From assembly GCA_023382265.1 (NCBI GenBank), contig JAMCPX010000050.1, positions 1 to 50,790 of the forward strand: a stretch of 50,790 nucleotides of DNA, written 5' to 3'. Position 1 is the first letter of the stretch. Every line of letters begins with the position of its first letter. The stretch comes from Deltaproteobacteria bacterium. Its GTDB lineage: Bacteria; JAMCPX01. The notes under the pieces were generated by a model. It made no database searches and had not been told where the DNA came from. It saw only the letters and a program-made list of their open reading frames with translations. Below are positions 27,261-33,487 of the stretch, one piece after another. Made by a program: the position numbers and the translations under genes.

Positions 27261-29207
27261 ATGGGCAAATATAAAGTAAGATTGAGACCTCTTCCTTCTT
27301 TTAGAGAAGAGGTTTTATGCATGATGGGATGTCCAATACGTACGGATAGCGGTAAGTATGTTCAGAATGTTCATGAGGGTAAGTACGAGGAGGGATACAT
27401 AATTGCACGATCTCCCAATCCCTTTGCCTCTGTGTGCGGCAGGGTATGCGCTGCTCCTTGTGAAGATAACTGCCGCAAAGGGAAGGTTAACATAAATGAG
27501 CCCATATCTATTCGTTCATTAAAAAAATTCCTCTGTGAAAAATATGGGGTTGAATCCAATCAACCCGAGACACAGAAAAAATTATTTGAAGGTGAAATGC
27601 CCTATGCTCATAGATGGAGCTGGGATGCACCCGTACTTGTAAAGCAGGGGAAAATAAATAAAAAAGTAGCAGTCCTTGGTGCCGGAGTTGCCGGTTTGTC
27701 ATGTGCACATGACCTTGCTTTAATGGGATATAAAGTAACGGTCTTTGAAGAATCGGAAAGAGCAGGCGGTATGTTAAGGTATGGAATCCCAAGATATCGT
27801 TTACCTTCCGATGTGCTTGATCAGGAGATAGAGGCGGTTGTTAATCTTGGAGTAGAGATAAAGTATAACACAAAAATAACGAAAGAGTTTGGGATCAGTG
27901 AACTTAAAAAACAAGGTTATGAAGCCATTTTTATAGCGGTCGGGACGCAGCGGGGACGCGATCTAAACATAGACGGCGTAAACATGCAGGGCGTTATAAA
28001 AGCCATTGATTATCTTGTCGGAGCAAACAAGGGAAAACAATTCTATCTTGGTAAAAAGGTTGTTGTAATAGGGGGCGGACTTGTAGCTTTGGATGCAGCG
28101 AGGGATGCTTTCCGTTTAATAAAAGAAACCATTCAAAAAGAAGTTTCAATAAATTATCCGGGTGAAAAAGATGAACAGACATCTGTGCAGGGGATGTTTG
28201 AAACACTCGATATCGCAAGGACAGCTATTCGTAGGGGTGCTATAGAAGTTGATGTTGTCAGCCTTGAATCGTTGGATGATATGCCAGCTGCCAGGACCAT
28301 ACAGGGAAAGGCTGAGCTTTTAGAAACAATAGATGAAGGCATTAAGTTCCTTCCTTCATGGGGACCGAAAAGCATTATCGGTGAAAACGGAAAGGCAAAA
28401 GCTGTTGAGTTTAAAAAGGTATTGTCTGTGTTTGATGAGAACGGCAGGTTTAATCCAAAATTTGATGATGCGGTAACAAAGGTAATAGAAGCAGATTCTA
28501 TAATCTTAGCTATCGGCCAGGCTACGGATCTATCCTTTTTAAGAGAAGAAGACAATATAAAGATAGCTGGTTCGGGTGTTATAACAATTGATAAAAACAC
28601 ATTGTCATCAACGGCACCCGGGGTGTTTGCAGGCGGAGACTGCGCATTTGGTCCGAGAAACTTAATTGATGCGATCGCAAACGGTAAATTAGCAGCAAGG
28701 TCCATGCATGAATACCTATCAAATAAAAAACAGGAAGTAACGTATAAAGTAGAAGTAGAAGTATTGCGGACAGAGCAATATAAAATGCCGGACGATTACG
28801 ATATAAACAGAAGAAAAACCCCGCCGGTACTTGATGTAGACGAGAGAATTGGTTTAAGGGAATTAGAGCAATCATTTACAGAAAAAGAGGCCAGGATTCA
28901 GGGGGGAAGATGTCTAAAATGTCATATAAGTCCGATCTATGACTCTGATCTTTGCATAATTTGCGGCAGATGCACCGATATATGTCCGGAAAATTGCCTT
29001 GAATTTGTAACGCTTGAAGAACTGGAACTCAGTAATGAAGATAAAGCAAATATATATAAAAACTTACAATACAAAGAAAATGAAAATGTAACCGTGTTTT
29101 TAAAAAATGATGAAAAGTGCATTAGATGCGGATTGTGCGCGATTAGATGCCCTACTAATGCAATAACAATGGAAAAAATTATGGTCTGGGAGGAAGTAAA
29201 TGTCTGA
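27261..29207 (+). CDS. GltD-like FAD/NAD(P) and iron-sulfur oxidoreductase
   Basis: A 648-residue flavoprotein. The N-terminal Fer4_20 domain has six cysteines (20, 24, 59, 63, 67, 71), four of which would bind a cluster or clusters as in the glutamate synthase small subunit. A first dinucleotide fold ([20 protein letters not shown], from about 138) binds FAD and a second ([17 protein letters not shown]) binds NAD(P)H. The C-terminus adds two 4Fe-4S ferredoxin motifs ([15 protein letters not shown] and [15 protein letters not shown]). No glutamate synthase large subunit is nearby. The gene overlaps the Rieske gene by 8 bases, so the product probably feeds or accepts electrons at the Rieske/cytochrome b complex. 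The start has a GAGGG site. Confidence 0.85.
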
Positions 29208-29745
29208 AGATAAACTCAATAAAAATGATTATAGCCCAAAATTAGAGATTACACGCAGAGGTTTTTTGTCTTTAATCGGACTTGGTTTTTTGGGCGTTAT
29301 TGGTAGTCTTGTGCTGCAGGGTTTTTCTGCCGTGAGATCTATAATCCCGAATGTTCTATACGAACCGCCAAAAAAGTTTAAAGTAGGCCCGCCGTCCAGG
29401 TTTTCAGAAGGTGCAACATTTTTGCCGGAAAGATTGTTTATAATTAACAACAATAACGAATTCCATGCTATTTCGGCAATATGCACGCACCTTGGATGCA
29501 CTGTTAACCTTGCCCAATATTCACCGCCAAAAACTTATATATCACGAAGAACTGGTAAAACAGTAGACGAGACCTTTGAGTTCCATTGCCCCTGTCATGG
29601 TTCAAAATATAGAGAGAACGGCAATGTTTATGCAGGACCAGCCCCATTGCCATTGCCGTGGTATGAGCTTTCTTTGGCACCGGACGGCCAGATAGTAGTT
29701 AATACGGACAAAATCGTGGATCATAATTTCAGATTAAAGTTATAA
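29200..29745 (+). CDS. Rieske iron-sulfur protein
   Basis: A 181-residue Rieske protein of a quinol:cytochrome c oxidoreductase. A Tat-type signal anchor ([16 protein letters not shown]) places its head in the periplasm. The 2Fe-2S ligands are in CTHLGC (Cys95, His97) and CPCHGS (Cys130, His133); Cys100 and Cys132 can form the stabilising disulfide. The segment between the two boxes is long and includes [10 protein letters not shown], which departs from textbook bc1 proteins. It is co-translated with the upstream flavoprotein (8-base overlap) and followed by cytochrome b 27 bases later. Confidence 0.95.
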
Positions 29746-29772
29746 AACTAAGTATTTAAAAGAGGAGTAACA

Positions 29773-31089
29773 ATGATAGAAAAGCTTAGGAAATTAAAAA
29801 AACAACTAACATGGACTTATGTTCCGGAAACAGAAAGAGAGGCATCGGATGCGGTTGTAAGAAATTTTGTTCTTCACTGGTTCCCGTCAAAAGTTACATC
29901 TAAGAGTCTGTCTTTCTTATACACATTAGAACTTGGAACTATATCCATATTATTATTTGCAATATTACTCATTACCGGAGTTCTTTTAATGTTCATGTAT
30001 GTGCCTTCTGTAGGGCAGGCTTATTGGGGAGTAAAGGATATTGAATATGTGGTTTCTTTTGGTCCTTTTATAAGAGGTATACATAGAATAGCAGCAAGCC
30101 TTATGGTAGCAGTGGTGTTCCTGCACATGATGAGAGTTTTCTTAACAGGGGCTTACAAAAAAGGCGGGAAAGCTATTGGCAGTTTTAGACCGTTAAACTG
30201 GTGGATAGGTTTAACACTTTTGCTCGTTACAATGCTCCTTTCTTATACAGGCTATCTGTTACCATGGGACCAGTTAGCAGTATGGGCAGTAACGATAGGG
30301 ATGAATATAGCTAAATCAGCCCCTTTTATAGGAGAAAAAATCGCCTTTTTGTTAAGGGGCGGTACTATTATAGATCAGAATACTTTACTTAGATGGTATG
30401 TTGCCCATGTTGTTTTATTGCCCTTATTTGGCGTTATTTTAATCGTATGGCATATGTGGAGAATCAGAAAAGACGGCGGTTTGGGCAGTGTGGAATCTTT
30501 AGCTGAGGAAAGGATTGTTAAAGATAAAATAGTTCAAAAGGGCAAGACGTACAGTTTAATGGGTATTGTAACGGGTGCAACACCAGCCATCATTTCCCAT
30601 AATGTGCAGGGTGATACATATTTTTCTTCCCCACAGCTCACACGCAGGATTTTAATTGTCTTTACAATTAGTGCTGTTATCCTTTTAGGTATTGCCTTCA
30701 TATACAAAGCACCTCTTGAAGCACCAGCAAGCATGATTATACCCCCTAACCCGGCAAAGGCTCCCTGGTATTTTTTATGGCTACAGGAACTTGTCGCCGA
30801 TACAACAATAAGGATTGGAAGCTTCACAATAAGCGGCGGTTTTGTGGGGGGTATATTGGTTCCAGGTGTTTTGATCCTTGCTGCAGTGCTCTGGCCGTTC
30901 TTGGATAAAAGCGGTCCGGAAGCAATAGGCGTATGGTTTCATAAAAATAGGAGGCTGCAAAACACAGTTTTTATCCTGACGGTATTGGTAATTATAGCTC
31001 TGATTTTTGTCGGCAGTGATATGCGTGGTCCTTATTGGAAGCTTTATATGCCATGGCAAACATGGCCTAAAACGCCTACAAAGTTTTAA
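29773..31089 (+). CDS. Cytochrome b of a b6f-like quinol oxidoreductase (fused)
   Basis: A 438-residue membrane protein combining the cytochrome b6 and subunit IV regions in one chain. The haem ligands are His104 and His118 in one helix (13 residues between) and His212 and His227 in another (14 residues between); the 14-residue spacing is typical of b6f-type rather than bc1-type proteins. LLPWDQLAVWAVTIG forms the quinol-site region. The subunit IV part has PPNPAKAPWYFLWLQEL, with PAKAPWYF replacing the PEWY loop of mitochondrial-type proteins. It receives quinol electrons and passes them to the Rieske protein. The ATG has a GAGGAG site. Confidence 0.95.
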   Translation: MIEKLRKLKKQLTWTYVPETEREASDAVVRNFVLHWFPSKVTSKSLSFLYTLELGTISILLFAILLITGVLLMFMYVPSVGQAYWGVKDIEYVVSFGPFIRGIHRIAASLMVAVVFLHMMRVFLTGAYKKGGKAIGSFRPLNWWIGLTLLLVTMLLSYTGYLLPWDQLAVWAVTIGMNIAKSAPFIGEKIAFLLRGGTIIDQNTLLRWYVAHVVLLPLFGVILIVWHMWRIRKDGGLGSVESLAEERIVKDKIVQKGKTYSLMGIVTGATPAIISHNVQGDTYFSSPQLTRRILIVFTISAVILLGIAFIYKAPLEAPASMIIPPNPAKAPWYFLWLQELVADTTIRIGSFTISGGFVGGILVPGVLILAAVLWPFLDKSGPEAIGVWFHKNRRLQNTVFILTVLVIIALIFVGSDMRGPYWKLYMPWQTWPKTPTKF

Positions 31090-31113
31090 ACAAATAGAAA
31101 AGGAGACTCAAGA

Positions 31114-32334
31114 ATGGAGCGAAAGGATTCTTTACTTTTATTTATAGGTGGCACCTTATTATTAATACTTACACTTGCAATGATCTATAAAGAAACTCAC
31201 CCGCAATGGGAAAGTTATCAAAAGCAATTTGTAAAAGTAGCAAGCACATATATAGGCGAAGAAAAAGCCAGAAAGGTAGATCTTGGGTTCAGACAAATAT
31301 ATATACCAAAACTAAGACGTGTGGATAGATGTACAATCTGTCATTTAGGTTATAATATCCCAGGATTAGAAAAAGCTGTGGAGCCTTTTACAACGCACCC
31401 TGACCTGCCTTTTATGAAATATCATCCGTTTAAAAAATTTGGATGCACCCTTTGTCACGGCGGCCAGGGTTATGCAACAAAGCTGCCCGATGCTCACGGT
31501 AATGTATCAAACTGGAATGTTCCTTTGTTAAGCAAAAGACTTGGAATAAAATACGGGTTAGCAGAGCCGGGACATATTATGGAAATCAATTGCAACCGAT
31601 GTCATAATGATGATCAAAGCACCCAATGGATGGATTACATCAACTCGGCAAAAAATCTTGTTAAGCAATATAATTGTACTTCCTGTCATACTATCAACGG
31701 CAAAGGCGGAACAATAGGACCTGATCTAACGGATGAAGGAGATAACAATCCGGAGAACTATAACTACAGTAATGTGAAGGGTGAAAAAACATTCTTTAAC
31801 TGGTTATATCAACATTTTAAAAACCCCGCCAAAGTGAGCAAGGGAACTGTCATGCCTAATTTTAATCTAAGCGATAAAGATGCACAGGCACTAACAATGT
31901 TGGTCCTGAGTTTTAGGCATAAAAACCTGCCCTATTCCTACATACACATTCCCGCTTCACAGCCTGTAACCGTAAGTGCAGTGGTAAAGAAGACAACCAA
32001 GATGGCGTATAAGGCTAAGTCGCCAAGAAATGAAGAGATGATAAGTGGGGCTCATCTAATGAAAAAGTACGGATGCACTGCATGCCATACCACCAATGGC
32101 TCTCCGCTTGTAGGACCTTCTTACAAAGATTTATATGGAAGAAAAGAAGTTGTGATAATTAACGGTAAAGAGAAACACATAGTTGTTGATGCCGCATTTA
32201 TCAGAAACAAGATTCTTAATCCAGGTGCTACTGATGTAAAAGGCTTTCCGCCGCATGTAATGCCTTCGTTTAAGGGTAAACTTAACTCCAAAGAGATCAA
32301 TGAGATCATCGAGTATATAGAGAGTCTTAAATAA
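31114..32334 (+). CDS. Five-haem c-type cytochrome, membrane-anchored
   Basis: A 406-residue cytochrome with an N-terminal membrane anchor (LLLFIGGTLLLILTLAMIY). Five CxxCH haem sites are CTICH 73, CTLCH 111, CNRCH 160, CTSCH 188 and CTACH 321. The last two start mono-haem class I-type modules followed by PN or MPSF-type Met regions (GTVMPNF, HVMPSFKGKL). The first three form a multihaem head. It takes the place of cytochrome c1 or f as the immediate electron acceptor of the Rieske protein. The start has an AAGGAG site 24 bases after the cytochrome b gene, and 8-13 bases separate it from the next cytochrome. Confidence 0.92.
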   Translation: MERKDSLLLFIGGTLLLILTLAMIYKETHPQWESYQKQFVKVASTYIGEEKARKVDLGFRQIYIPKLRRVDRCTICHLGYNIPGLEKAVEPFTTHPDLPFMKYHPFKKFGCTLCHGGQGYATKLPDAHGNVSNWNVPLLSKRLGIKYGLAEPGHIMEINCNRCHNDDQSTQWMDYINSAKNLVKQYNCTSCHTINGKGGTIGPDLTDEGDNNPENYNYSNVKGEKTFFNWLYQHFKNPAKVSKGTVMPNFNLSDKDAQALTMLVLSFRHKNLPYSYIHIPASQPVTVSAVVKKTTKMAYKAKSPRNEEMISGAHLMKKYGCTACHTTNGSPLVGPSYKDLYGRKEVVIINGKEKHIVVDAAFIRNKILNPGATDVKGFPPHVMPSFKGKLNSKEINEIIEYIESLK

Positions 32335-32347
32335 AGAAGGGGTGTAT

Positions 32348-33487
32348 ATGAAAATAAAAACAATACTCTTTAGTATTTTTTCCATTGCTTTCTTATTTTC
32401 TATTAGCTATGCGCAGACTCTTCCCGAAAACCCGCTTGCAGGCAGAATCGTTTTTGAAGAGAAAGGGTGTATCAATTGTCATTCCATAAATGGTGTAGGT
32501 AACCATGTTGGTCCTGATTTTGGAGAGCATCTCTTTTTTGGAACGGGCTATAAATTGGCAGCGTACATGTGGGATCATTCCTATAAAATGGTTCCAAAGA
32601 TGAAAGAGTTGGGCGTCAAGAGGCCCGTGTTTACAGGGAACGAATTTAAAAAATTGCAAACGTATTTATATTTCGTCCGCTATCTTGGCGAGAACGGGGA
32701 TATAGCAAAAGGGAAAGAACTGTTTGCGCAAAAGGGATGCAATATCTGTCACTCAATCGGCAATAAAAACAGTGTTGGAATCAGACTTGATCGGATGAAG
32801 GTTTATCCCTCTCCGCTTTATCTTGCACAAAACCTGTGGAATCACTCTCCACTCATACATGAGAAAATCAGATCAATGGGCATAACAATACCAACATTAA
32901 CATCAAGTGATATCGTAAACCTTGCAGCCTATCTGCAAGCGGTAAACTATTTCTCAAAACGGGAAAAACAATATTTTTACCCCGGTAATCCTGAAAAAGG
33001 AGAAGAGTTATTCAAGAAAAAACATTGCTATTATTGTCATATACTAACAGGAACCGGTCCCAACCTTAAAAAGTTAACAATGAATAAGAGTGTTACAGAG
33101 ATAGCAGGCATGATGTGGAATCATTCTGATTTTATGCAGAGAAAAGCAATGGAGCTTGACATTAAATGGCCCACATTCCACGGTAATGAAATGGCTGATA
33201 TAATCTCTTACCTCTATTACATAAACCCGCCTCATGTAAGTGGCTCAGAAGGAGACGGCAGGCTTCTTTTTAAAACGAAGGGCTGTATAAATTGTCATTT
33301 TGCAGGCAACAAAATGCATGCGCCTGTTTTTACGGAAAAGAAGTATTATGGCAGCAAGAATGAGTTTTTTGCATCCATATGGAATCACATACCTAGGACA
33401 GAAGCAGCATTTTTATTGAATGGTAAAAGGCTTCCGGATCTGACAGCTTCTGATGTGAAATCGCTTTACCTGTTTTTGAAAAGGTAG
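32348..33487 (+). CDS. Four-haem c-type cytochrome with internal module repeat
   Basis: A 379-residue exported cytochrome with a cleavable signal peptide (KTILFSIFSIAFLFSISYAQ). Four CxxCH sites are spaced about 90 residues apart: CINCH 41, CNICH 131, CYYCH 227 and CINCH 313. Each is followed by a similar W-x-H motif (MWDHS, LWNHS, MWNHS, IWNHI) and, in most modules, a Met-x-x-x-G/D segment, so the protein is four tandem copies of a mono-haem domain. It is probably a soluble or loosely attached electron wire downstream of the complex. I chose the ATG at 32348 with an AGAAGG site rather than a GTG at 32342. Confidence 0.9.
   Translation: MKIKTILFSIFSIAFLFSISYAQTLPENPLAGRIVFEEKGCINCHSINGVGNHVGPDFGEHLFFGTGYKLAAYMWDHSYKMVPKMKELGVKRPVFTGNEFKKLQTYLYFVRYLGENGDIAKGKELFAQKGCNICHSIGNKNSVGIRLDRMKVYPSPLYLAQNLWNHSPLIHEKIRSMGITIPTLTSSDIVNLAAYLQAVNYFSKREKQYFYPGNPEKGEELFKKKHCYYCHILTGTGPNLKKLTMNKSVTEIAGMMWNHSDFMQRKAMELDIKWPTFHGNEMADIISYLYYINPPHVSGSEGDGRLLFKTKGCINCHFAGNKMHAPVFTEKKYYGSKNEFFASIWNHIPRTEAAFLLNGKRLPDLTASDVKSLYLFLKR

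Follow-up and report, generated by a model that had tools for sequence, protein, structure and literature searches.

Positions 27261 to 33487 of the window, the whole 50,790-nt stretch of DNA analysed here, hold a cluster of five genes that, judged from the encoded sequences, specifies a b6f/bc1-type complex for electron transfer in the membrane, with an extra flavoprotein. The best explanation of its function, to which sequence and analogy lend about an even chance, is quinol-driven reduction of NAD(P)+ by a b6f-like complex with a docked NAD(P)-reductase subunit.

Inspection of the open reading frames placed all five genes on the + strand. The first (27261..29207; 648 aa) encodes an NfnA/StnA-like NAD(P) oxidoreductase, as identified by Pfam, AlphaFold2, and Foldseek, and overlaps by 8 bases the gene for a Rieske [2Fe-2S] protein (29200..29745; 181 aa), which was recognized by the Pfam Rieske domain, motifs, and PDB matches. 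These are followed by a fused cytochrome b6 and subunit IV (29773..31089; 438 aa; Pfam Cytochrome_B and haem ligands), a pentahaem cytochrome c (31114..32334; 406 aa; Pfam Cytochrom_C), and a tetrahaem cytochrome c with a GTG start (32342..33487; 381 aa). The sequence-only reading had described the same set, and its gene positions, 8-base overlap, and cofactor classes were all confirmed. Pfam returned the domains of an FAD/NAD(P)/multi-[4Fe-4S] flavoprotein, a Rieske protein, and a fused b6-type cytochrome b, and the cytochromes said to bear five and four haems contain five and four CXXCH motifs, respectively.

Relatives were searched for in 41 and then in 386 genomes, as well as in the small phyla of two of them (G031 and G024), and the flanks were annotated. 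The flavoprotein, Rieske, and cytochrome b genes were adjacent in 38 loci, the window included, spanning 24 bacterial family codes plus one Holophagaceae genome (L006). Because the same set was found again in 38 loci, the association of these genes is above chance. A multihaem c gene was also present wherever the contig was long enough, the usual order being flavoprotein–Rieske–cytochrome b–multihaem c, and in most of the loci the genes overlap or nearly touch. The genome search that had been proposed for conserved adjacency thus showed that it is not confined to this lineage. The earlier view of a translationally coupled GltD-like subunit as uncommon has to be given up, since the gene set is widespread and an NAD(P) oxidoreductase has already been published as a subunit of complexes in Kuenenia (PMC12954380). 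No report of such clusters outside anammox bacteria was found in the open-access literature searched; the arrangement is known from anammox, and the present variant and its breadth appear to be undescribed in the searchable papers.

Trees of the flavoprotein and cytochrome b, another check that had been suggested, were concordant. Their distances agree (Mantel r of 0.75, with 0 of 2000 permutations as high), although the loci were picked for having a cytochrome b and the comparison is therefore no test of adjacency itself. Paralogues from the same genome (G038 and G362) pair alike, falling into matching clades in the two trees. The cluster flavoproteins form a clade (SH-aLRT of 100) separate from their nearest relatives outside such clusters. 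For instance, the flavoprotein-like genes at L096, L097, L099, L100, and L109 lie outside a cluster and are more distant, across a branch with support of 100; L108 and L043 are cut off by a contig edge, so that they count neither as in nor as out of a cluster. The flavoprotein is very probably a subunit dedicated to the Rieske/cytochrome b complex.

The flavoprotein has an N-terminal Fe-S domain with six cysteines (Fer4_20), FAD and NAD(P) Rossmann folds (Pyr_redox_2), and a C-terminal two-[4Fe-4S] ferredoxin domain (two Fer4) plus a CXXC. No signal peptide was seen in its sequence, and the protein is presumably cytoplasmic. An alignment with 37 relatives shows seventeen invariant or almost invariant cysteines, at positions 20, 24, 59, 63, 67, and 71 in the N-terminal group and 551, 554, 565, 568, 571, 575, 579, 620, 623, 626, and 630 in the C-terminal group; the C-terminal two-cluster domain is invariant among the relatives. 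The label "GltD-like" was right as to domains, and the protein comes near GltD-like NCBIfam families while falling under the curated cut-off of every family listed. Sequence and predicted fold place it nearer the A subunit of NfnABC/StnABC than GltD. A PDB sequence search put the A subunit of NfnABC first (9bov, E value of 9e-76), with NfnL and GltD ranking behind, and Foldseek with the AlphaFold2 model (mean pLDDT of 87.8) again gave 9bov as the top match, followed by StnABC. The conserved K88 aligns with a lysine in the NfnABC/StnABC A subunits and with a glutamate in NfnL and GltD. Among solved structures, the A subunit of these bifurcating transhydrogenases is thus closest to the flavoprotein, but the transhydrogenases are soluble enzymes that lack a Rieske or cytochrome b partner.

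The Rieske protein has a twin-arginine N-terminus (TRRGFL), a membrane anchor, and the motifs CTHLGC and CPCHGSKY. The Ser/Tyr pair in the second motif is the same as in Kuste4569 of Kuenenia, whose potential exceeds +300 mV (PMC12954380), and a PDB search ranked 9rk4 (Kuste4569) first and 9rk3 (Kustd1480) third. Cytochrome b comprises the b6 and subunit IV parts in one chain (NCBIfam ExtP/b6 at residues 29 to 237 and ExtQ at 285 to 427), and among solved structures it is closest to cytochromes b6. The spacing of 13 and 14 residues read from the sequence was borne out by the haem ligand pairs H104/H118 and H212/H227, which were invariant in 79 of 79 aligned rows. The complex resembles cytochrome b6f in its His spacing and b6-type sequence but differs in having an extra flavoprotein and no cytochrome f. 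It also lacks the Cys35 of b6 (haem cN), the position being occupied by Glu53. A further histidine, H35, is conserved ahead of the first transmembrane helix, presumably on the negative side, at a spacing of 197 to an arginine.

The pentahaem cytochrome has an N-terminal membrane anchor and holds the place of cytochrome f/c1. Its four core CXXCH motifs are conserved throughout, and the fifth lies in a C-terminal class-I domain that is absent from shorter relatives; the AlphaFold2 model was too poor for use (mean pLDDT of 66.5). The secreted tetrahaem cytochrome consists of four class-I-like repeats and is an accessory, likely serving as an electron carrier. It had been counted as a member of the set, and the gene is indeed present in the window but falls outside the conserved core. 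In sister genomes, a 2-TM protein and a protein of ∼490 aa take its slot after the pentahaem gene, and homologues were found close to the cluster in G203 and on its contig in G038. Five sister loci (L031, L032, L033, L040, and L041) carry a monohaem cytochrome c gene directly upstream of the flavoprotein gene; the window has none there and has the tetrahaem gene downstream instead.

The closest published parallel for an NAD(P) oxidoreductase in such a cluster comes from Kuenenia stuttgartiensis, for which Hauser et al. (2025) described two complexes, Kuste4569-4574 (R/b-3) and Kustd1480-1485 (R/b-2), and supported the proposal of Kartal et al. that quinol bifurcation enables them to form NAD(P)H (PMC12954380). 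The window shares with these a b6f-like Rieske/cytochrome b core, an NAD(P) oxidoreductase in the cluster, a multihaem c in place of cytochrome f, and a closely similar Rieske protein. The nearest fold of the Kuenenia oxidoreductase is likewise NfnABC, and it has an Fe-S cluster near FAD without a fourth cysteine and with a lysine close by (PMC12954380); compared by this published description, the window flavoprotein has the same nearest fold and likewise a cluster near FAD that lacks its fourth cysteine, with K88 as the presumably neighbouring lysine. In the AlphaFold3 models of Kuenenia, a haem b with His43 (Kuste4571) or His62 (Kustd1481) as ligand sits between the two cytochromes b, and haem cN is retained (PMC12954380). 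By motif and spacing, H35 of the window is the counterpart of this proposed bridging-haem histidine. However, the window differs in having cytochrome b and subunit IV in one chain, a 5-haem instead of a hexa- or octahaem c subunit, no HAO-like octahaem gene, a gene order that begins with the flavoprotein, no haem cN cysteine, and a His-to-Arg distance of 197 compared to 204 in both Kuenenia cytochromes b. Retention of haem cN in the models of Kuenenia makes the window type a distinct variant. The 386 genomes contained no near-identical relative of the Kuste4569 Rieske protein, and as the highest identity was 54%, no anammox genome with this protein was in the sample.

We infer the following physical assembly, electron path, and direction. 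The NAD(P)-reductase subunit would be docked on the cytoplasmic side of a b6f-like quinol oxidoreductase, which is presumably dimeric, like all Rieske/cytochrome b complexes. Quinol would be oxidized at the positive-side site, with one electron passing from the Rieske centre through the pentahaem and tetrahaem cytochromes to a high-potential acceptor and the other through haems bL and bH and the flavoprotein Fe-S clusters to FAD. Two such turnovers would reduce one NAD(P)+. Flow from quinol to NAD(P)+ is the best-supported direction, at close to an even chance, by the Kuenenia precedent and the presence of complex I. The sequence-only reading had coupled NAD(P)H to the quinone pool, and its NAD(P)–quinone link is probable, but the direction preferred in the literature is the reverse.

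Several other readings have to be weighed against quinol-driven NAD(P)+ reduction. Electrons could run from NAD(P)H or ferredoxin to haem bH or to a negative-side quinone, making the complex an NAD(P)H:quinone reductase and a quinol:cytochrome c reductase in one. Every cofactor that this needs is present, and NfnA/GltD-like enzymes work in both directions. Complex I is encoded in the same genome, so NADH oxidation does not depend on the Rieske/cytochrome b complex, and the argument that complex I would save more energy, also made for Kuenenia (PMC12954380), renders such reverse flow rather unlikely. A different partner is conceivable too. The C-terminal ferredoxin domain might pass the low-potential electrons on to ferredoxin or to some other carrier in the cytoplasm, with NAD(P) as one partner of several, as in NfnABC; this would suit both the invariance of that domain and the best fold and sequence match. 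We regard it as distinctly improbable, because the domain is more simply a wire from cytochrome b to FAD, as it was modelled in Kuenenia (PMC12954380).

A soluble flavoprotein that is merely co-expressed with an ordinary Q-cycle complex is a still more doubtful proposition, since the adjacency is kept over great distance, the trees match, and the paralogues pair. That the GltD-like domains instead mark the small subunit of a glutamate synthase, misplaced by chance, has almost no likelihood. As noted from the sequence alone, there is no glutamate synthase partner nearby. The sole GXGXG glutamate synthase domain of the genome is on another contig (C1), beside a gene for a glutaminase-like domain, and an NfnB/NfnA-like pair is on contig C37; the flavoprotein therefore has neither a glutamate synthase nor an NfnB partner here. 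The C1 location of these split glutamate synthase genes, together with the conserved Rieske/cytochrome b context and a fold nearer NfnA, led us to reject the identification as GltD.

Forty further cytochrome b loci with flanks served as a comparison set. Most of them group in a sister clade in which cytochrome b is split, the c subunit is multihaem (often 8-haem), and the stretch contains no flavoprotein, although for L174 and a few others, which stop close to a contig edge, its absence may be miscounted; L174 was omitted from the association counts. Both kinds of complex, with and without the flavoprotein, occur in eleven surveyed genomes (G031, G038, G041, G042, G066, G105, G168, G203, G291, G304, and G368), which suggests separate roles. 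Octahaem b6f-like complexes are known from Nitrospina, Kuenenia, and Methylomirabilis (PMC3578206). They share with the window a related cytochrome b and Rieske protein and a multihaem c, whereas in the 8-haem loci retrieved from the sister clade a flavoprotein is mostly missing from the neighbourhood, cytochrome b is split, and the haem cN cysteine is usually kept.

Two cytochrome b features were considered as marks of flavoprotein coupling, and neither was retained. H35 was conserved in all 42 cytochromes b with a flavoprotein and in 36 of 37 without; being equally kept without a flavoprotein, it marks the wider clade and is no evidence for NAD(P) coupling. The haem cN cysteine was found in 2 of 42 rows with a flavoprotein compared to 23 of 35 without (Fisher p of 9e-9), a trait that follows ancestry, with few independent pairs and no support from them. 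The His-to-Arg distance of 204 recurred in 22 flavoprotein-less rows and in L157. Taken by itself, this spacing hints at a place for the Kuenenia cytochromes b in the sister clade. At L157 (G081) and L161 (G223), Rieske/cytochrome b clusters with the haem cN cysteine also contain a more distant NfnA-like flavoprotein, and by the shared spacing of 204, L157 may be of the anammox type.

Tentatively, the clusters with a flavoprotein could represent a widespread respiratory class that forms NAD(P)H directly by quinol bifurcation, without haem cN or working negative-side quinone reduction. There would hence be two functional Rieske/cytochrome b classes, one proton-pumping and one NAD(P)H-forming, with the two frequently present together in a cell. 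This picture is somewhat unlikely. Should the complex of the window form NAD(P)H from quinol, it would provide a route to low-potential reductant without reversing complex I and a second function for the Q-cycle machinery. The proposal of NAD(P)H formation by bifurcation is currently based on anammox bacteria, which are hard to handle; the conserved relatives in many lineages, whose one-chain cytochrome b is simpler, would open it to tests in a heterologous host or in one that is easier to work with.

The rest of the genome gave further observations on respiration. A single full-length haem-copper oxidase homologue was found, adjoined by a gene for a dihaem c protein; with its WVEGAWELI motif, the homologue resembles a NorB-type nitric oxide reductase. 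An 846-residue frame on contig C14 (6785-8812; L183 and L184) has two weak matches to cytochrome bd subunit I and may be a bd-like oxidase such as has been described in Nitrospina. Contig C8 (L044:7891-11527) holds a further, distant Rieske/cytochrome b cluster, in the order pentahaem c, small 2-TM protein, Rieske, cytochrome b, and pentahaem c; in sister genomes (L031 and L041), a cluster of this type adjoins the flavoprotein cluster in divergent orientation. Finally, contig C33 (L047:3744-8495) carries another GltD-like flavoprotein, of the PRK12771 type, which adjoins a 2-oxoacid:acceptor oxidoreductase alpha subunit and a ferredoxin reductase, with a gene containing nine CXXCH motifs nearby.
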